Positions 5,117 through 36,043 of a stretch of 64,000 nt of DNA are shown here, piece after piece; the first letter of the stretch is position 1, and every line of letters starts with the position of its first letter. The stretch lies in contig JAFARZ010000011.1 in the NCBI GenBank assembly GCA_019245115.1, positions 20,023 through 84,022 on the forward strand, read 5' to 3'. The DNA comes from Streptosporangiaceae bacterium (lineage in GTDB: Bacteria; Actinomycetota; Actinomycetes; Streptosporangiales; Streptosporangiaceae). A model generated the notes under the pieces. The model saw nothing but the letters and a program-made list of their open reading frames with translations, was not told the DNA's origin and searched no databases. Made by a program: the position numbers and the translations under genes.

Positions 5117-6784
5117 CTAGGCCAGGTTAGCCAATCGGGTTAGGCCGCGGCTTGGCACGTTAAGAACGCGTAAGATCCAGCCCTTCCCGATCTTGTACCA
5201 CATGTGGTGGTACCAGTCCTGGTACGGGATGACCTTCCCCGCCCATATCGGATAGAAGTAGTAGAACATCAGCAGGACGGCGAGCAGGTAGGCGCCGACG
5301 ACGCCCGCACCGATCGACCGGCGCAAAATAGTAGCCGTCACCGGGCCGATGATCAAGCCTATACACAACGTCAGGGCGAGGATCAGGAACGGCTCGAACT
5401 CGAGCGCGTAGTAGAAGAACTTCGTCCGGGACACCAGCGGGAACCAGATCACCCAGCCCGCCAGCATGCCGCACAGCACCGCGCCGGCCCGCCAGTCGCG
5501 GTGCAGCAGCCACCAGCCCAGGACGAAGATCAACGCGAGGATCGACCCCCACCAGATGGCCGGCGACCCGAGCGCCAGCACCTCCTGGGACCACTCTGAA
5601 CCGCTGTAACGCGTAGGGCAGTAGTGCGCCGGGCCGCCGGCTGGACCGGTGTAGCACTCGTAGAAGAAGGCGACGGGCCGGGTCATCACCAGCCAGTCCC
5701 ACGGCTGGGACTGATACGGATGCGGGGTGCGCAGCCCGAGGCCGAAATGGATCGCCTGGTAGTGGTACTCGTACAGGGAGTACAAAGCGGAGATGACCGG
5801 GGTGGTCACGCCATGGGTCTGGCCGTAGTTCCGGTAATAGCCGGTGCCGGTGATCAGCCAGTTGGACCAGGTCGCCACGTAGACCACGAACGGGATCAGC
5901 ACGAACGTCAGCGGCAGCCAGACCGCGTCCCGGCTCAGTGCGCCCCGGATGAAATCGCGCAGCCCCGCGGCCCGCCGTGCGCCGCAGTCCCACGCGGTGA
6001 TCAGGACCGCGAACCCGATCAGGTACCAGACCGCGTCCCACTTGGTGGCGATGGCCAGGCCGATGAAGACCCCGGCCAGTACCCGCCACCTGCGGATACC
6101 CAGCCGCGGCCCGGCCTCATCCGACGGCCGCGACGCCATCGCGTACGCCAGCCGCTCCCGGGACTCGTCCCGGTCGATGAGCACGCAGCCGAACGCGGCC
6201 AGCACGAAGAACATCAAGAAGATGTCCAGGATCCCGGTCCGCGACAGCACGAACTCCAGGCCGTCCAGCGACATCAGCAGCCCGGCGATGCAGCCCAGCA
6301 GCGTGGAGCGGGTCATCCGGCGGGCGATCCGGCAGATCAGCAAGATGGCCAGCGAGCCGAACACGGCGCTCATGAACCGCCAGCCGAAGGAGTTCAGCCC
6401 GAACATCCACTCGCCGACCGCGATCAGCAGCTTTCCCATCTCCGGCTGGACCACGTACTCGCCGCAGTTCGTGCCGCCGCACGCCTGGAAGATGTTCGTG
6501 TGCCCCGCCTGGATCAGCGTGTTCGCGTTGCTGACGGTGTTCCATTCCACACCGTGCTGGAGGATGCTCCACGCGTCCTTGACGTAGTACGTCTCGTCGA
6601 AGATCAGCGCGCGGGGAACGGCGAGCCGGTCGAACCGCAAGAACGCGCCGAACGCGGTGACCAGTAGCGCCCACACCCAGCTCCGCAGCCGGTCGTCTGG
6701 CATCGGGGAGATCAGCCGGGCACGCAGGACCGACAACCTGTCGTCGTCCTCAGTGACCGCCCGGACGGGCGTGGTAGCCGTCAT
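5117..6784 (-). CDS. Protein O-mannosyltransferase (dolichyl/polyprenyl-phosphate-mannose--protein mannosyltransferase, PMT family)
   Basis: RFDRLAVPRALIFDETYYVKDAW (conserved DE of PMT loop 1), HPEMGKLLIAVGEWMFG-like VQPEMGKLLIA, C-terminal PMT_4TMC-like region. Start moved to MTATTPVRAV; the longer ORF overlaps rsmI. Confidence 0.92.
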   Translation of the reverse strand: MTATTPVRAVTEDDDRLSVLRARLISPMPDDRLRSWVWALLVTAFGAFLRFDRLAVPRALIFDETYYVKDAWSILQHGVEWNTVSNANTLIQAGHTNIFQACGGTNCGEYVVQPEMGKLLIAVGEWMFGLNSFGWRFMSAVFGSLAILLICRIARRMTRSTLLGCIAGLLMSLDGLEFVLSRTGILDIFLMFFVLAAFGCVLIDRDESRERLAYAMASRPSDEAGPRLGIRRWRVLAGVFIGLAIATKWDAVWYLIGFAVLITAWDCGARRAAGLRDFIRGALSRDAVWLPLTFVLIPFVVYVATWSNWLITGTGYYRNYGQTHGVTTPVISALYSLYEYHYQAIHFGLGLRTPHPYQSQPWDWLVMTRPVAFFYECYTGPAGGPAHYCPTRYSGSEWSQEVLALGSPAIWWGSILALIFVLGWWLLHRDWRAGAVLCGMLAGWVIWFPLVSRTKFFYYALEFEPFLILALTLCIGLIIGPVTATILRRSIGAGVVGAYLLAVLLMFYYFYPIWAGKVIPYQDWYHHMWYKIGKGWILRVLNVPSRGLTRLANLA

Positions 6785-26186: not shown

Positions 26187-27164
26187 GTGACCGGCCTGGT
26201 GACGCAGAGCGAGAAGCGGCTGATGCTGGTGTCCGGGCGAGCCTACCCGGAGCTTGCCGTCGAGGTCGCGGACTGCCTCGGTGTAGAGCCGACGCCGAGC
26301 AAGCTGTACAACTTCGCGAACGGCGAGATCTTCGTCCGGTTCCTCGACTCTGTCCGAGGCTGCGATGTGTTCGTGCTGCAGAGCCACACCGCCCCGATCA
26401 ACGAGTGGATCATGGAGCAACTGATCATGGTCGACGCGCTGAAGCGGGCGTCGGCCAGGCGGATCACGGTGGTGGCGCCGTTCTTCGGCTACGCGCGGCA
26501 GGACAAGAAGAGCCGCGGACGCGAACCCGTCTCGGCCCGGCTGATGGCCGACCTGTTCCTGACGGCCGGCGCTGACCGGCTGATGGCGGTCGACCTGCAC
26601 ACCGCGCAGATCCAGGGATTCTTCGACGGGCCTGTCGACCACCTGTTCGCGCTGTCCATCCTGGCCACCTACATCGAGGGGAAACTGGACGTCAGCCAGG
26701 TCACCGTGGTGGCTCCGGATGCCGGCCGGGTCCGCGTCTGCGAGCGCTGGACCGACCGGCTCGGGTGCCCGCTGGCGATCATCCACAAACGCCGCGACCC
26801 GGATGTCGCCAACCAGGTGCGGATGTTCGAGGTGGTCGGGCAGGTGCGGGGACGCACCTGCATCCTGGTGGACGACATGATCGACACTGGCTCGACGATC
26901 GCCAAGGCGGCCGAAGCCTTGTTTGAACAGGGAGCGGAACGCGTGATCGCCACCGCGACGCACGGCGTGCTGTCCGGCCCAGCGGTGGACGTGCTGAAAA
27001 ACTCACGGATCAGCGAGGTCATCATCACCAATACGCTGCCGGTCCCCGAGGAGAAGCGGTTCGACAAGCTCACCGTGCTGTCCATCGCGCCGCTGCTGGC
27101 CAGGGCGATCAGCGAGGTATTCAGCGACGGCTCGGTGACCAGCCTCTTCGACGGTCAGAGCTGA
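26187..27164 (+). CDS. prs: Ribose-phosphate pyrophosphokinase
   Basis: FANGEIFVRFLDSVRGCDVFVLQS, FGYARQDKKSRGREPVSARLMADL, CILVDDMIDTGSTIAKAAE (PRPP loop). Confidence 0.97.
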   Translation: MTGLVTQSEKRLMLVSGRAYPELAVEVADCLGVEPTPSKLYNFANGEIFVRFLDSVRGCDVFVLQSHTAPINEWIMEQLIMVDALKRASARRITVVAPFFGYARQDKKSRGREPVSARLMADLFLTAGADRLMAVDLHTAQIQGFFDGPVDHLFALSILATYIEGKLDVSQVTVVAPDAGRVRVCERWTDRLGCPLAIIHKRRDPDVANQVRMFEVVGQVRGRTCILVDDMIDTGSTIAKAAEALFEQGAERVIATATHGVLSGPAVDVLKNSRISEVIITNTLPVPEEKRFDKLTVLSIAPLLARAISEVFSDGSVTSLFDGQS

Positions 27165-27655: not shown

Positions 27656-30600
27656 ATGGTGAAGTTCCGGCTGCTAGGACCCCTAGAGGTTCGTGTCGGA
27701 GAGCAGTGGGAAGCGATCGGGGCGCCAAAGTGGCGTTCCCTTCTGGCCGCTCTGCTTATCAACGCTGGACAGATTGTCTCAACTGAGACACTGATCGACG
27801 AGGTCTGGGGTGACGACGAACCGGCGAAAGCGGCAAACCTCGTCAGCATCTATGTGCTCAGGCTTCGCCGGCTCATCGGCGACACCAACAGCAGCATCCT
27901 GATCACCCGTTCCCCTGGCTACCTGCTGCGGGTGCCGCCTGAGGCCATCGACTCCCAGCTGTTCGAAAAAATGGTCCGTGAGGGCCGGCGGGCACTCAGC
28001 AACGGTGAAGCGCAGCGCGCTGCCGAGCAGCTCGCCGAGGCCGTGGCGCTGTGGCGCGGCAGCCCGCTGGCCGACGTGCCGCACTCACAGATGGTCGAGG
28101 CCGAGGCGGACCGGCTCACCGAGCTGAAGCTGGATGCCGACGAGCTGCGGATCACCGCGGAGCTGGCCTGCGGCGGCCACGCCCAGGTGGTGCCGGAGCT
28201 GCGGCGGCTGCTGGCCAACAACCAGCTCCGCGAGGGCCTGTGGCTGCTGCTGATGAAGGCTCTCGACGGCTCGGGCCGGCACGCCGAAGCCCTTGACGCC
28301 TACGGCCAGGCACGCAAGGTCATCTCCAACGAACTCGGCGTCGACCCCGGACCGGAACTGCGCCGCCTGTACGCAGATCTCCTGTCCGCCGATTCCTCCA
28401 GCGCGTCCGGGCCGCCGCCCGGAAGTCCGGCCGGCACCATCCTGGCCGGTTCGGTGGCGGCGACAACCGCACCGCCACCAAAGCCCGCCGCACCCAAGCC
28501 GGCCGCATCTGAGGCGGCCGGGCCCAAGACGGCCGTGCCGGATTCCGCTGAGCCCGCGACGACCGGCTCTGCCCGGCCGCGCCAAGACGGTCTGGCAGCG
28601 GAACTGACTCCGTCGGCCGCGGCAGCTGCTCAAGCCGCCGAGGCGCGGGAGAGTTCCGTGCCGGTGACTGCCGACCGCCGGGAGACGCAGGCGCCAGCGC
28701 AGTTGCCGACCGACATCGCCGACTTCACCGGCCGCGAGGAACAGGTCCAGCATCTGTCCGACCTACTGGCGTCCGCTTCCGACGAGAATTCCGGGGCGGT
28801 CCGGATCGCCCTGGTGGCCGGCTATGGCGGGCTGGGCAAGACATCCCTCGCCGTGCACGCCGCCCATCGCGTGCGCGGCAGGTTCCCCGACGGGCAGCTC
28901 TATGTGGACCTGCTCGGCGCTACTCCGCATCCGCTCGCCGCGGCCGACGTCCTGGCCAGGTTCCTGCGGGATCTGGGGGTGGACGGCAAGGAGATCCCGC
29001 TCGATGAGGCCGAGCGCTCGGCCCGCTACCGCACCAGCCTCGCTGGACGCCGCGTCCTGGTCGTACTGGACAACGCCCGCGACGCGGCACAGGTCAGGCC
29101 GCTGCTTCCGGGCAGCGCGGCGTGCGCGGTGCTGATCACCACCCGCAGCCGGATGCCGGACCTGGCCAGCGGTGAGCTGGTCGACCTCAACGTGCTGGAC
29201 GATGACGAGGCGCTGACCTTGTTCACCAGGATCGTCGGTGACAAGCGCGCCGCGGCTGAGCCGGAGGCTACCGCCGAGCTGCTGCTGGCCTGCGCCGGCC
29301 TGCCGCTGGCCATCCGCATCTGCGCCGCCCGCGTGGCCACCCGCCGCGGCTGGAGCATCCGGACGATGGCCGACCGGCTGCGCGACGAACATCGCCGGCT
29401 GGATGAGATGGCCGTCGGTGACATGGCGGTCCGTGCGAGCTTCGAGGTCAGCTTCGCCGCGCTGCCGACCGCCAAGCGCGGCGTCAACCCTGCTGACGCG
29501 TTCCGCCTGCTCGGCTTGTGGCACGGCCCGACGATCTCCTCGGCCGCGGCCGCCGCGTTGTTCGGCGTCACCGAGGACCAGGCCGTTGACGCGCTTGAGC
29601 TGCTGGTGGACGCGAATCTGCTGGAATGCGTGGCCACGGACCGTTACAAGTTCCATGACCTGCTTCGGGTTTATGCCGCCGAACGAGCTGAGGCTGATCT
29701 GTCTGAGGATGGTCGCCTGTCCGCGATAGCCCGCCTCCTGCGGTGGTATATGCGCACCGCCGATGGCGCCGCCACTGCCGTTTCGCCGTATCGGTACAAC
29801 ATCCCGCTAGAGCCCGGGGAGGTAGACCCGATGCCATCGGGCTTCGATGGCATCGAAGATGCCCTCTCCTGGTATGACAGCGAGCGCGTCAACGTCGTCG
29901 CCGCCACCAGCCAGGCGGCGGCAGTCGGCCTGCACGAGGTGGCCTGGCGGCTACCAGCCTCGCTGTTCAGTGTCCTAAACCGTCGCGGCAGCTTTGCAGA
30001 TCTTGTCGCCACTCACCGCATCGCGCTGACCAGCGCACGCGAGGTCGGCAATCGCCGGGGCGAGGCGTGGGTGCTGAACAACTTCGGCAACAGCCTTGCG
30101 CGCATCGGCAAAGCCGAGGGGATCGGCTATCTTGAGCAGGCCCTTGCCATCAGCCGAGAGATCGGCGACCGCATCGGAGAGGCGCGGGCGGCACACAACC
30201 TTGCTGAGGGTCATTACCTCGTGAACGGGCCGCAGACCGCTCTTGAACACATGCTCCGGTCACTCCAGGTGCAGCGCGAAGTCGGCTATTCGGCCTTGCA
30301 CGCTGGGACACTTAATAACCTCGGTCAGATCTACATGGAGCTAGGACGGCTCGACGAGGCTGTGGACTGCCTTCAGGATGCTCTGCCAATTTACGCGAGT
30401 AGTAATTCGGCACACGGAACGGGCCACGTGCTCCTGAACCTCGGGCGTGCACAACTGGCACTCGGTCATCACGAAGAAGCTCTAGCTCACTTCCGGCGGT
30501 CGCTGGTCAGTCATCGTGCATCCGGGGACAGGCCCAATGAGGCGCTGACGCTACGGTTTCTCGGACAGGCTCAGCTCGGTCGGGGCGACATCGCAGCTGC

Positions 30601-30700
30601 GGGGGAATCATTCACAAGCGCACTAATGATCTATGATGAACTGGGCGATGGCACGCACGTCGCAGAGGTCCGATCGCTTCTCTCCAGCACTGGACAGTGA
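27656..30700 (+). CDS. SARP/AfsR-family regulator (winged-helix, BTAD, NB-ARC, TPR)
   Basis: N-terminal Trans_reg_C (VKFRLLGPLEVRVGEQWEAIGAPKWRSLLAALLINAG) plus BTAD; Walker A GYGGLGKTSLA, LVVLDNARD; GLPLAIRI; C-terminal TPRs. Confidence 0.93.
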   Translation: MVKFRLLGPLEVRVGEQWEAIGAPKWRSLLAALLINAGQIVSTETLIDEVWGDDEPAKAANLVSIYVLRLRRLIGDTNSSILITRSPGYLLRVPPEAIDSQLFEKMVREGRRALSNGEAQRAAEQLAEAVALWRGSPLADVPHSQMVEAEADRLTELKLDADELRITAELACGGHAQVVPELRRLLANNQLREGLWLLLMKALDGSGRHAEALDAYGQARKVISNELGVDPGPELRRLYADLLSADSSSASGPPPGSPAGTILAGSVAATTAPPPKPAAPKPAASEAAGPKTAVPDSAEPATTGSARPRQDGLAAELTPSAAAAAQAAEARESSVPVTADRRETQAPAQLPTDIADFTGREEQVQHLSDLLASASDENSGAVRIALVAGYGGLGKTSLAVHAAHRVRGRFPDGQLYVDLLGATPHPLAAADVLARFLRDLGVDGKEIPLDEAERSARYRTSLAGRRVLVVLDNARDAAQVRPLLPGSAACAVLITTRSRMPDLASGELVDLNVLDDDEALTLFTRIVGDKRAAAEPEATAELLLACAGLPLAIRICAARVATRRGWSIRTMADRLRDEHRRLDEMAVGDMAVRASFEVSFAALPTAKRGVNPADAFRLLGLWHGPTISSAAAAALFGVTEDQAVDALELLVDANLLECVATDRYKFHDLLRVYAAERAEADLSEDGRLSAIARLLRWYMRTADGAATAVSPYRYNIPLEPGEVDPMPSGFDGIEDALSWYDSERVNVVAATSQAAAVGLHEVAWRLPASLFSVLNRRGSFADLVATHRIALTSAREVGNRRGEAWVLNNFGNSLARIGKAEGIGYLEQALAISREIGDRIGEARAAHNLAEGHYLVNGPQTALEHMLRSLQVQREVGYSALHAGTLNNLGQIYMELGRLDEAVDCLQDALPIYASSNSAHGTGHVLLNLGRAQLALGHHEEALAHFRRSLVSHRASGDRPNEALTLRFLGQAQLGRGDIAAAGESFTSALMIYDELGDGTHVAEVRSLLSSTGQ

Positions 30701-30798
30701 CCATTAATGCGGAGTTAATTCGTTACGCTTAGGCTGTGCTGGCAGCTGAGGTTGTCAGCGTTAATCGTCCCGGGACACGAAAGGAGAGGGCGATCATC

Positions 30799-30975
30799 AT
30801 GGGGAATAACGACAACGCAGAGACGGGCACCATCCCTGGCGACACCCCGCCGAGCACTGGAGGCACCATCCCTGGCGACACCCCGCCGGCCGCCAACCCG
30901 AACACCATCCCTGGCGACGCTAAGCCGAACACCATCCCAGGGGACGCCAAGCCGGAGACTATCCCCGGCGATTAG
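30799..30975 (+). CDS. 58-aa repeat peptide with five TIPGD motifs; unknown function
   Basis: MGNNDNAETGTIPGDTPPSTGGTIPGDTPPAANPNTIPGDAKPNTIPGDAKPETIPGD; aaaggagaggg RBS upstream, terminator-like hairpin downstream. Confidence 0.75.
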   Translation: MGNNDNAETGTIPGDTPPSTGGTIPGDTPPAANPNTIPGDAKPNTIPGDAKPETIPGD

Positions 30976-30989
30976 GCCCTAACGCACAG

Positions 30990-31024
30990 CGCGTGCGGAG
31001 GCGGGAAGCCCGTTTCCGCACGCG
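30990..31024 (+). terminator. Strong hairpin after the TIPGD ORF
   Basis: CGCGTGCGGA...TCCGCACGCG 10-bp stem with an inner CGGG/CCCG stem; no T-tract. Confidence 0.6.
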
Positions 31025-31079
31025 TTCGCGTTCCGGGATGTCGAACCTAGCGTGTGCGTGCGATCGGATCACATAACTA

Positions 31080-31111: not shown

Positions 31112-32566
31112 ATGCCGCAGCCCTTTCCCAAGCCGGATCACATCTTCGACCGGGACCGTGAGTGGGAGGGCCTCGTCAGGTTCGCCGCCGCCAACAGTAC
31201 CGAGCCGCGGCTGGGTATCGTCAGCGGGCGCCGGCGGCAGGGCAAGACGTTCCTGCTCGACGCGGTAGCCAGTGCGTTCGACGGCTTCTACTTCGCCGCG
31301 ACCGACTCGACCGAGACCGAGTCCCTGGCCGACCTCGGGCGCGCCCTGGCCGCACGGACGGGCGGCGGGCGGTACGCCTTCGCGGACTGGGACGAGGCGC
31401 TGCGCCTCCTGTTCGAGGTGACCGGGGACGGCCTGGTGGTGATAGACGAGTTCCCGTATCTGAGCAAGGCCAGCCCGTCGTTGCCGTCCCGGATCCAGCA
31501 GGCCCTTGGGCCGCGCGGATACGGGCGGGTGGCGCGGTCCAAGCTCCTGCTGTGCGGGTCCGCGATGTCCGTGATGGGCAGCCTGCTCGCCGGGAACGCT
31601 CCGCTGCGTGGCCGGGCCAGCCTGGAGCTGATCGTCCGCCCGTTCGGCTATCGCGACGCGGCGCGATTCTGGTCCATCGGTGACCCTCGGCTAGCCGTGC
31701 TCGTTCACTCGATCGTCGGTGGAACGCCCGCGTACCGCCGTGAGTTCGTAGCCAGCGATGCGCCAGCTTCACTGGATGATTTCAACGACTGGGTTCTACG
31801 CACTGTTCTCAACCCGCAGCTTCCCCTCTTCCGCGAGGCGCGTTACCTCCTGGCAGAGGAGGCGGACATCCGAGACACGGCCATCTACCACGCGGTCCTC
31901 GGCGCGATTGCCGCCGGGAATGCCACCCGGGGCGGAATCGCCAGCTGCATAGGCCGTAAGTCGCCGGACATCGGGCACCCGCTCTCGGTACTTGAAGACT
32001 CCCAGCTGATCGCACGCGAGCCGGACCCGTTTCGCGCGGGGCGGTCGCTGTACCGGATCACCGAACCGCTCATCGTCTTTTACGAGGCCGTCATGCGCAG
32101 GCAATGGACACGGCTGGAACGAGGAGACACCACAGGCGCCTGGCAGAATTCCCAGGCCACTTTCCTGGCCCAGGTGGTGGGACCTCACTTCGAGGCAATC
32201 TGCCGGGACTGGGAGATGCTCCACGCGCACACCGACGAGCCGGTGGGAGAGACAGCCGCCGGCGCGGTGGCCGATCCCATCCGGCGCGGCCAGATCGAGG
32301 TTGATGTCGCGGTTTTCGCGCCGGAGAGCCCGGGCCGTCCCCGGCGAGTGCTATCCCTCGGCGAGGCCAAGTGGGACAAGACCATGGCCGTCCGCCATCT
32401 GGACCGCCTGCGGCGTGCCCGTGACCTGCTCGCGGTCAAGGGCTACGACATGACCTCCACGCGGCTTACCTGCTACGGCGGAGCGGGATTCGACGATGCC
32501 CTACGCGCCGCGGCCAAACGGGATCCCGCGGTGCGCCTGGTGGATCTCGACACCCTGTACGGCTGA
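31112..32566 (+). CDS. AAA ATPase with C-terminal DUF234-like/PD-(D/E)XK-like domain
   Basis: VSGRRRQGKTFLL (Walker A), GLVVIDEFPYLS (Walker B), LLLCGSAMSVM, FGYRDAARFW, C-terminal EVDVAVF...SLGEAKW. Confidence 0.85.
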   Translation: MPQPFPKPDHIFDRDREWEGLVRFAAANSTEPRLGIVSGRRRQGKTFLLDAVASAFDGFYFAATDSTETESLADLGRALAARTGGGRYAFADWDEALRLLFEVTGDGLVVIDEFPYLSKASPSLPSRIQQALGPRGYGRVARSKLLLCGSAMSVMGSLLAGNAPLRGRASLELIVRPFGYRDAARFWSIGDPRLAVLVHSIVGGTPAYRREFVASDAPASLDDFNDWVLRTVLNPQLPLFREARYLLAEEADIRDTAIYHAVLGAIAAGNATRGGIASCIGRKSPDIGHPLSVLEDSQLIAREPDPFRAGRSLYRITEPLIVFYEAVMRRQWTRLERGDTTGAWQNSQATFLAQVVGPHFEAICRDWEMLHAHTDEPVGETAAGAVADPIRRGQIEVDVAVFAPESPGRPRRVLSLGEAKWDKTMAVRHLDRLRRARDLLAVKGYDMTSTRLTCYGGAGFDDALRAAAKRDPAVRLVDLDTLYG

Positions 32567-32585
32567 GTGCCGCCCCGCGTTCCGG

Positions 32586-33887
32586 TCATTCTCCGGGCTG
32601 GCCGCCGGATAGCGTGCAGACCTGATTGCGACCGAGAGCCTTGGCCCGGTACAGAGCGGCGTCAGCGGCGATGATCAGCTCGTCCAGATCGGTGTGGGCG
32701 GAAGCGGAAGACGCCGTGCTCAATCCCATGGAAACGGTGATACTTACCTGCTCAGACATATTCTGGTAGCCGCAGCTGGCAAACGTCATGTCGGCTATCG
32801 TGCTGCGCAGGCGTTCGGCTATCCGCACCGCATCGTCGACGTCGGTGCGGGGGAACAGGATCGTGAATTCCTCTCCGCCGAACCGCCCCAGGATGTCGTA
32901 AACGCGGAGTTGCCGCCGGAAGACGCCGGACAGCGTGATCAGGACATTGTCCCCGGTCAAGTGGCCATAAGCGTCATTGACCTGCTTGAAATGATCGATG
33001 TCCAGTATGGCCAGCGAGACCGGGGCTGCGTTATGGGCGGCGCGGATTAGTTCCGCGCGCGCTTCACGCTGCCAGGTGACCGCGTTCAGCAGGCCGGTCT
33101 TGGCATCAAGCCGGGCGGCGTCGGAAAGCTGGGCATGCCGCAGCGAGCGCTGGAGCAACGTGACGAGCGGCAGTGCGAGCACGGCCAGCACCCAGGTGCC
33201 GGTCGCGGCTATGACCGCCGCGAGCAGCGTGCCGGCTGCGATCTCGGCCAGGTCGTTGTACAGCGGATCGCGCGCGAACTGCCGGTTGCGCAGGCTCACT
33301 GCCGGGTCGGTTCCCTTGACCGCTATCGCCACCAGCGCGGAATTGAGCGTGGCTTGCAGGACAGCGCAACCGACGGCGAGGGATGCCCAGTAGAGCCAGT
33401 GCCGGACCACTTCGGTCGCCGGCGTAGGCAGCCGCGATGCGACGTCGTGGAAGATGGCCGAGCAGACGCCATAGGTCAGACCCTGCGAAGCAGCGGTGAA
33501 GGCACGACGATGCAGCGGTTTCGGAGTGACCCGCCACTGAGCGAGCACCGTCTTCAGAATCGGGGCCAGCATGCTGTAGACCGGCGGAAGCAAGATCGCG
33601 ACAGGGATATGCCAGATGCCGTGAATATCCTTCGTGTATTCGGTGGCCTCGCCTTCACGCCGGGTCAGCTCGATCGTGACCACGCCGAATACCAGTAGCA
33701 CGCCGAACAACTCGATGTCGTGGGTCCGATACGAGGTGACCGCGACGCCAATGGCAACCGCGGCCAAATAGCAACCCACAACGCCGATAACGTAGCTGAC
33801 CAGCCATCGCTGCAGCTTCAATAGTGGCCAGTTCCGCGCTGTCACCACCGCCTCCGTCCAGCAGCGCCCGCCACTACACAATGTCAC
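32586..33887 (-). CDS. Membrane-anchored GGDEF diguanylate cyclase
   Basis: N-terminal multi-TM region; DAKTGLLNAVTW, LAILDIDHFKQVNDAYGHLTGD, GRFGGEEFTILFP, ADAALYRAKALGRNQV. Confidence 0.93.
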   Translation of the reverse strand: MTLCSGGRCWTEAVVTARNWPLLKLQRWLVSYVIGVVGCYLAAVAIGVAVTSYRTHDIELFGVLLVFGVVTIELTRREGEATEYTKDIHGIWHIPVAILLPPVYSMLAPILKTVLAQWRVTPKPLHRRAFTAASQGLTYGVCSAIFHDVASRLPTPATEVVRHWLYWASLAVGCAVLQATLNSALVAIAVKGTDPAVSLRNRQFARDPLYNDLAEIAAGTLLAAVIAATGTWVLAVLALPLVTLLQRSLRHAQLSDAARLDAKTGLLNAVTWQREARAELIRAAHNAAPVSLAILDIDHFKQVNDAYGHLTGDNVLITLSGVFRRQLRVYDILGRFGGEEFTILFPRTDVDDAVRIAERLRSTIADMTFASCGYQNMSEQVSITVSMGLSTASSASAHTDLDELIIAADAALYRAKALGRNQVCTLSGGQPGE

Positions 33888-34024
33888 CTACGGATACAGT
33901 TCCTGTCTATATTTTGTGGGCATTTTTCCTATAGATGATCTTTTGGGGTTGATCGTTCGCCGGCAAGGAAGACAATAGATGCAGGTCCGTCGGGAGGAGA
34001 TACGTCATGCGTGAAACTGGCTGG

Positions 34025-35173
34025 TTATCCCGATCGGCCCGACCGGGCCGGTCGGGCCGGTCTGGCCGATCGGGTGAAGGCGATCGTCAGGGCGGCGATT
34101 GCGCCCAGGGCGCCGGCCGCGGCGATGACCGAACGCGGCGAGACGTAGTTTGCCGCTGCTCCGGCCAGCACCATCGCCGTGCCCTGCCCCAGACTCATTC
34201 CGCCTTGCGCCAAGCCGAATGCCTGGGCGCGACGGTCGTGTGGTGCGGCTGTGACAAATGCGGAGCTGGCGGCCGCCTGGTAGCCGCCCAGCAGGCCCGA
34301 TCCGGTAAGTATCAGCACGGTGGGCACGAGGCTCAGCCGGAACACCAGCAGGGCGAGCGTCGCGCAACAGCAAGTGGCGAACGGCGCCATCAGTGCGGCA
34401 CGCCGGCTGGGCGGTATCAGGCGGCTGAACGCGACATTGCCCAGCGTGCCGCCCAGGGCTCCGGCCGCGAGGATCGCGCCCACGGCCACTGGCCCGCCGT
34501 GCAGTACTATCGCCAGCGGCACGGCGATACCCTCCGGGACGTTGTAGAAGGCGGCCAGCCAGCCAAATAGCATCGGCGTGCGCAATTCTGGTGCCCCGAA
34601 CACCAGCCGTGCGCCTGACCTCGCGTCGGCCAGCGGTGCCGGCCTACGCGCGTCGCTCACCGACTGCGGCGGGTGCTCGTCCACCCCGAGGCGCACAACC
34701 AGGGCCGAAACAGCGAACGTGGCCGCGTCCAGGATCAATGACGTGCGGGTGCCCAGTGCGCCCACCATGACGCCGCCCACCGCGAAGCCGATGATCTGAG
34801 ACGCCTGATAGGTGGTCATGGATATCGTCTGGCCGAGGACGAACAGGTCGCCGTGCAGGACATCCGGGTACATGGCGGCGCGCGCCGAACGGAACGGCGC
34901 CTCGAGGAACGTCACCACGAACAACAGGACCACCAGCGCAGCGACGGGCATGGCGGGCAGTGCCATGATCGCCACCAGCGCGGTACGGGTGACATCGCAG
35001 CTGACCATCACGCGGCGGCGCGGCCACCTGTCGCCGATGCCCGCCAGGAACACACCGCCGAGGAACATCGGCACGATGCTGACCGCGAACGTGACGGCCG
35101 CGACCAGTGCGTTCCGGGTCCGGTCGTAGACGAGGACCGTCAGTGCTACCCGGGCCAGCTGGTCGCCGGCCAC
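34025..35173 (-). CDS. MFS transporter (N-terminus probably extends upstream)
   Basis: MAGDQLARVALTVLVYDRTRN, GIGDRWPRRRVM; in-frame upstream codons read REFRNLWLAQITSVAGDQ, typical of this family, so the listed GTG start is probably internal. Confidence 0.85.
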   Translation of the reverse strand: MAGDQLARVALTVLVYDRTRNALVAAVTFAVSIVPMFLGGVFLAGIGDRWPRRRVMVSCDVTRTALVAIMALPAMPVAALVVLLFVVTFLEAPFRSARAAMYPDVLHGDLFVLGQTISMTTYQASQIIGFAVGGVMVGALGTRTSLILDAATFAVSALVVRLGVDEHPPQSVSDARRPAPLADARSGARLVFGAPELRTPMLFGWLAAFYNVPEGIAVPLAIVLHGGPVAVGAILAAGALGGTLGNVAFSRLIPPSRRAALMAPFATCCCATLALLVFRLSLVPTVLILTGSGLLGGYQAAASSAFVTAAPHDRRAQAFGLAQGGMSLGQGTAMVLAGAAANYVSPRSVIAAAGALGAIAALTIAFTRSARPARPARSGRSG

Positions 35174-35404: not shown

Positions 35405-36043
35405 GTGCCCGAGGTCAAGATCGCCGCCGAGCTCCGTGAGGAGTTTGGCAAGGGGGCCGCTCGCCGTGCCCGCCGGGAGGGCCGTGTGCCCGCCGTGCTG
35501 TACGGCCACGGCACGGAAACCCGCCACCTGAACCTGCCCGGGCACGACGTGATGCTCGCGCTCAAGACGCCGAACGTGCTGATCCGGCTCGAGGGCCTGA
35601 ACAACGGCAGCGAGCTGGCCCTGCCCAAGGCGGTGCAGCGCGACGTGGTCAAGGGTTTCATCGAGCACGTGGACCTGGTCCTGGTCCGCCGCGGTGAGAA
35701 GGTCACCGTCGACGTGCCGATCCAGCTGACCGGCGAGATCTTCCCGGGCGGCGTGCTGGACCAGCAGCTGGTCCAGGTCACCGTCGAAGCCGAGGCGACG
35801 AACATCCCGCAGGGCATCGAGGTCGATGTCGAGGGTATGGAGGTCGGCGCCGCGGTGCACGCCGGCGACCTGAAGCTGCCGCGCGGCACCACACTCCAGG
35901 TCGACCCGGAGGCACTGGTCCTGCACGTGGTGGCCCCGCAGGCCGAAGAGCTGCCTGAGGCGGCCGAGGCGGAGGAGGGCGCCGAGGTTCCGGCGCCGGT
36001 TGAGGCGGAGGCGCCCGCCAGCGAAGGGGAGCAGGCCGGCTGA
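35405..36043 (+). CDS. rplY: 50S ribosomal protein L25/general stress protein Ctc
   Basis: [41 protein letters not shown], followed by a TL5-like C-terminal domain; adjacent to pth. Confidence 0.95.

Follow-up and report, generated by a model that had tools for sequence, protein, structure and literature searches.

What does a 58-aa repeat protein do when its gene lies directly behind that of a large SARP regulator? The question is raised by a locus in a stretch of 64,000 nucleotides from a Streptosporangiaceae bacterium, referred to here as the window, in whose coordinates positions are given. An earlier sequence-only reading had described the repeat frame and its neighbour and had offered two functions for the product, a multi-core precursor peptide or an exported signal.

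A repeat microprotein gene behind a large SARP regulator

The locus comprises the following features:
26187..27164, + strand: prs (ribose-phosphate pyrophosphokinase), the upstream syntenic marker (assigned from the sequence)
27656..30700, + strand: large SARP regulator, 1014 aa (Pfam, NCBIfam and PDB matches)
30703..30735, + strand: predicted SARP-dependent promoter (direct repeats plus TAGGCT, shuffle test)
30780..30789, + strand: Shine-Dalgarno AAAGGAGAGG (read directly)
30799..30975, + strand: repeat microprotein of AfsS type with five TIPGD cores in 58 aa (sequence, repeat and orthologue analyses)
30988..31026, + strand: GC-rich hairpin 3' of the microprotein stop (folding energy versus shuffles)
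35405..36043, + strand: rplY (ribosomal protein L25/TL5), the downstream syntenic anchor (Pfam Ribosomal_L25p and TL5_C)

The regulator is made up of a winged-helix/BTAD SARP part (residues 1-255; BTAD and Trans_reg_C), an NB-ARC domain (346-690), an arm and a TPR region (781-1000). Its earlier description as a 1014-aa SARP/NB-ARC/TPR protein is borne out by Pfam matches to BTAD (1.9e-42), NB-ARC (4.6e-15) and TPR_12 (9.1e-30). Matches in the PDB were AfsR 8k60 (E 9e-146) and 8jke (E 7e-145). The window's own genome (G000, 9.5 Mb) gave 56 matches to the AfsR model and holds a large set of SARP/NB-ARC/TPR-type genes.

Reading the DNA directly, we placed the ATG of the micro-ORF at 30799 and its TAG at 30973-30975, on the same strand as the regulator, whose stop ends at 30700. 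The gap of 98 nt and the Shine-Dalgarno in the feature list agree with the earlier claim of a 58-aa frame with its own ribosome-binding site about 100 nt past the regulator. The encoded peptide, MGNNDNAETGTIPGDTPPSTGGTIPGDTPPAANPNTIPGDAKPNTIPGDAKPETIPGD, can be laid out as MGNNDNAETG TIPGDTPPSTGG TIPGDTPPAANPN TIPGDAKPN TIPGDAKPE TIPGD. On rereading, the TIPGD core was exact five times, as had been noted; in none of 20,000 residue shuffles did a 5-mer occur more than three times. The frame is low-complexity, and searches of Pfam, NCBIfam and Rfam with the micro-ORF region returned no match. TIPGD-like places elsewhere in the genome of the window were weak, chance-like matches. A short open frame in that genome, at G000:C227:32821-32904 (L002), carries ETIPGDARARTIPVEARARDFPGD and lacks a clear start codon; its occurrence is probably due to chance.

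Variation among the repeats is confined largely to silent positions. The five DNA copies of TIPGD show five differences, each a synonymous change at a third codon position. Between repeat cores, we counted 41 synonymous and 2 non-synonymous changes, a count that rests on units chosen at the peptide level. For this reason, we repeated the count with DNA windows at every offset. In that scan, 47 of 60 variable bases fell at third positions, and all units but one were in the frame of the ORF. This is the pattern that a translated, constrained peptide would show, and the predominance of third-position variation argues that the peptides are translated and constrained.

In the published description of SARP targets, direct repeats are spaced 11 or 22 bp, and 8 bp separate the last of them from the -10 element (PMC10936776). 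The gap behind the regulator holds the direct repeats ATTAATG (30703-30709) and GTTAATT (30714-30720), with 11-bp periodicity and the spacer CGGA. A TAnnnT element, TAGGCT (30730-30735), follows 8 bp past the TTAATTC repeat. None of 300 dinucleotide shuffles reached the score of this box. The window micro-ORF thus has its own predicted promoter with a SARP-type direct-repeat box. Past the stop, the strong hairpin reported before was recovered at -45.1 kcal/mol (z = -4.7), a stability that none of 200 shuffles equalled. It lacks a U run and is probably a transcript end or a 3' stabilizer.

The micro-ORF accompanies one clade of SARP regulators

In 342 other Streptosporangiaceae genomes, the TIPGD repeat found no convincing match (best E 6.6e-4, in a 514-aa frame). 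Since the word is not conserved, we used rplY as an anchor to find the locus by position. Relatives were gathered through a search with the AfsR family model, a contig scan and this downstream anchor, by which about 40 Streptosporangiaceae loci were read. The commonest gene order in these loci is glmU-prs-rplY, and the prs homologues adjoining rplY are 70 to 91% identical. In the window, the interval from the micro-ORF to rplY holds an ATPase, a GGDEF and an MFS gene (31115-35173), a content that sets it apart from the relatives.

In 12 genomes, namely, that of the window and those of 11 relatives (L103, L109, L110, L111, L114, L116, L118, L120, L122, L123 and L143; the L118 contig is also the L039 contig), prs and rplY flank a large SARP gene. 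In all 12 loci, a micro-ORF of 40 to 135 aa lies directly 3' of the SARP gene. Each begins with ATG behind a purine-rich, Shine-Dalgarno-like stretch and encodes no Cys and few aromatic residues. Their net charges run from -6 to -29, the window copy having -6 in 58 aa. Clear tandem repeats are present in nine, with a different word in each: TIPGD (window), ETAMP, ETSVVP, ETVVP, ETIAAP, TIISE, GIIVKE, AMTHDAE and DVKPTGL. The micro-ORFs of L103, L114 and L123 are without clear tandem repeats; that of L103 has no repeats at all, and its second half is nearly pure Asp/Glu. The window and L103 have, however, identical DNA around the start codon (GATCATCATGGGGAATA), so that these two frames look orthologous even though one is rich in repeats and the other runs into Asp/Glu. 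In L110, a second micro-ORF with GTVPDTMVPD-like repeats and its own Shine-Dalgarno lies 1135-1248 nt past the SARP stop, in addition to the one with TVVPE.

Loci lacking the SARP gene had no such ORF between prs and rplY. Of two genomes from a single genus, G232 has both regulator and micro-ORF, and G013 has neither. At more than 50 other large-SARP/STAND loci, many of them from the same genome, we found no comparable repeat micro-ORF within 450 nt. At one locus, L059, a secreted small ORF carries a motif in two copies. The micro-ORF follows the window clade of large SARPs without exception, and its repeats are strongly constrained within each gene. The pairing with a SARP/NB-ARC/TPR regulator that the sequence-only reading had described is real and holds for all 12 prs/rplY-linked regulators, although the TIPGD word is not conserved. 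Repeats are homogenized inside each gene and exchanged for others from one species to the next. What persists is shortness, acidity, the absence of Cys and, mostly, the multicopy layout.

The flanking signals were followed in the same loci. In 10 of the 12 orthologues, the micro-ORF is followed by a hairpin with a folding energy of -30 kcal/mol or lower. A box model made from 29 Streptomyces afsS promoters matched L103, the nearest orthologue (p = 0.002), and more weakly L116 (p = 0.036), with no significant match in the other orthologues. The predicted SARP box is backed in part of the window clade only.

Proposed action of the microprotein and its alternatives

We favor the reading of the window locus as an AfsR-AfsS-like regulatory cassette, to which we give a probability of about 0.6, because the window ORF resembles AfsS in position and size, is likewise acidic and built of repeats, and has a predicted promoter of the same SARP-box geometry. 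The neighboring SARP, once switched on through its NB-ARC/TPR part, would activate the microprotein gene. The product would be a small and acidic protein of the cytoplasm, probably disordered, in which a short linear motif recurs several times. It may shift metabolism by acting, perhaps in a multivalent way, on some component of the transcription or stress machinery. A comparable action has been proposed for AfsS of Streptomyces coelicolor. Export of the product, the second function suggested earlier, is not borne out, as the 58-aa peptide, read directly, has neither a hydrophobic stretch nor a Sec/Tat signal.

The microprotein might instead be a ligand of its regulator's TPR domain and feed back on the adjoining SARP. 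We consider this unlikely, although several observations agree with it. The pairing of regulator and micro-ORF is strict, and TPR is the fastest-diverging annotated domain among the regulator orthologues (37 to 47% identity; SARP, 54 to 65%; NB-ARC, 62 to 76%). Asn, typical of position 6 in peptide-binding TPRs, is common at that position of the regulator. Moreover, the AfsR sensor domain has no known inducer (PMC10936776), and a report cited in PMC10972967 describes the SARP NosP as responsive to peptide ligands. However, the linker is more variable still than the TPR domain, and the TPR domain and the microprotein are both net acidic. A variable TPR groove, at which a first comparison had hinted, was gone once exposed convex positions served as the control: groove positions showed no excess variation (mean entropy, 1.92 versus 1.82; p = 0.55).

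Acidity itself could be the function if the microprotein were a DNA mimic on the DNA-binding face of the SARP and the repeats mere acidic spacers. All 12 proteins are negatively charged over the range given above, and the Asp/Glu half of L103 would suit such a role. Still, the window copy is weakly acidic, and the constraint on exact words such as TIPGD within the gene exceeds what charge alone would need, which makes this reading quite improbable. Very improbable, in our estimate, is a nonfunctional or selfish coding tandem repeat that came to lie past the regulator by chance. Tandem repeats do expand by slippage, and the words change completely between species; against this stand the strict position, the Shine-Dalgarno, the ATG, the maintained frame and the mostly third-position variation, as well as the absence of such repeats from the paralogue loci, more than 50 in number. 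Least probable is the multi-core precursor of a modified peptide, for instance a graspetide-like one using Thr and Asp/Glu, which the repeated Thr and acidic cores and a HaaT match might suggest: no RiPP-type or other modifying enzyme was found among the roughly 23 window genes scanned, as had been stated before, or in the conserved flanks glmU, prs and rplY, no orthologue has Cys, a conserved core or a conserved leader, L103 has no repeats, and the match of the regulator to HaaT (a TPR protein of a cyclophane RiPP system; 346 bits, far under the cut-off of 1125) is accounted for by the common NB-ARC/TPR region. An enzyme encoded elsewhere in the genome could still modify the peptide.

Comparison with known systems

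The sequence-only reading had not brought up the AfsR-AfsS pair. AfsS, an antibiotic switch of Streptomyces, has 63 aa and contains a 12-aa repeat in three copies; its gene is turned on by AfsR, which is encoded next to it (PMC2267785, PMC10936776, PMC10972967). For comparison, we fetched 30-odd Streptomyces afsR loci, most of which have an AfsS-type ORF 85 to 405 nt downstream. Their motifs include DMHATxEP, DNHMPAPP, NTHITD, NAHVTDKP, DDHVT, NNAMPSEP and GDSHQPAPP, a drift so wide that replacement of the repeat word evidently occurs in AfsS too.

In about five of some 30 Streptomyces loci, a secreted small ORF within about 1.1 kb past afsR carries a motif of this kind. The companion matches the AfsS motif of the same genome in L097 (5111-5284; GDSHMPAPP/GDSHIPAPP), L098 (about 5525-5779; DDHVT/DDHST) and L181 (NAHVTDKP/NGHVTDAP), and partially in L184 and L179. 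Should this pattern prove general, the repeat word may serve in recognition as a code. AfsS-type repeats would then be a fast-changing word common to the cytoplasmic microprotein, the sensor side of the SARP and, in some Streptomyces, an exported peptide, that is, a private code of each species. We regard this as distinctly unlikely; under it, the window clade would represent a case that arose independently or is very old.

The tree resolves the window regulators and AfsR as two distinct clades, both with good support, and joining them is rejected by the AU test (p = 5e-36 strictly and 4e-4 with AfsR-like rows added). They grouped, with weak support, only once a paralogue had been added. On this evidence, the partner regulator is not AfsR itself. 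Since AfsR belongs to another clade, homology of the window ORF to AfsS is unproven, and the association is either ancient and lost in most paralogues or has arisen twice. In a family relative (G003), the best AfsR match (L009) carries DGIPAGEPVAGT repeats at its C-terminus, which gives the impression of an AfsS-like repeat fused to the regulator.

AfsS has been called "sigma-like", with a mode of action that the papers describe as still to be found (PMC10972967, PMC2267785); one group sought an AfsS-like gene in Saccharopolyspora and did not find it (PMC3733707). A second, non-orthologous SARP clade with a comparable microprotein would extend AfsS-type pairing beyond Streptomyces. Together with the replacement of the word from species to species, it argues against the importance of any one sigma-like sequence and for position, multivalency and acidity as the features that may count. 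Word replacement also accounts for homology searches missing such proteins, for which a position-based search offers a way of finding them.

The TPR proteins of RiPP systems (HaaT and FxSxx-COOH) resemble the window regulator in the NB-ARC/TPR region, whereas the window locus scores far under their cut-offs and has no such modifying enzyme or precursor nearby. With AfsR, the window regulator shares the whole SARP/NB-ARC/TPR architecture, but it belongs to its separate clade and reaches 653 bits with the NCBIfam AfsR model, under the family cut-off of 1430. AfsS (AfsR2) and the window ORF are alike in gene order, acidity, lack of Cys and a promoter, predicted for the window ORF, with two 11-bp direct repeats before the -10 element. 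Their builds also correspond: most AfsS proteins fetched have 54 to 89 aa and a short motif in three to five copies, and the window ORF has 58 aa and five copies. They differ in the repeat words, the clade of the regulator and the chromosomal place, which is prs-rplY in the window clade, whose words bear no convincing AfsS similarity beyond T-x-x-G-D in a few species. Judged by its sequence, the window ORF is AfsS-like in layout and not a member of the AfsS family; it looks like a distant cousin or a look-alike of AfsS. AfsR-AfsS is the closest known system to the window pair.
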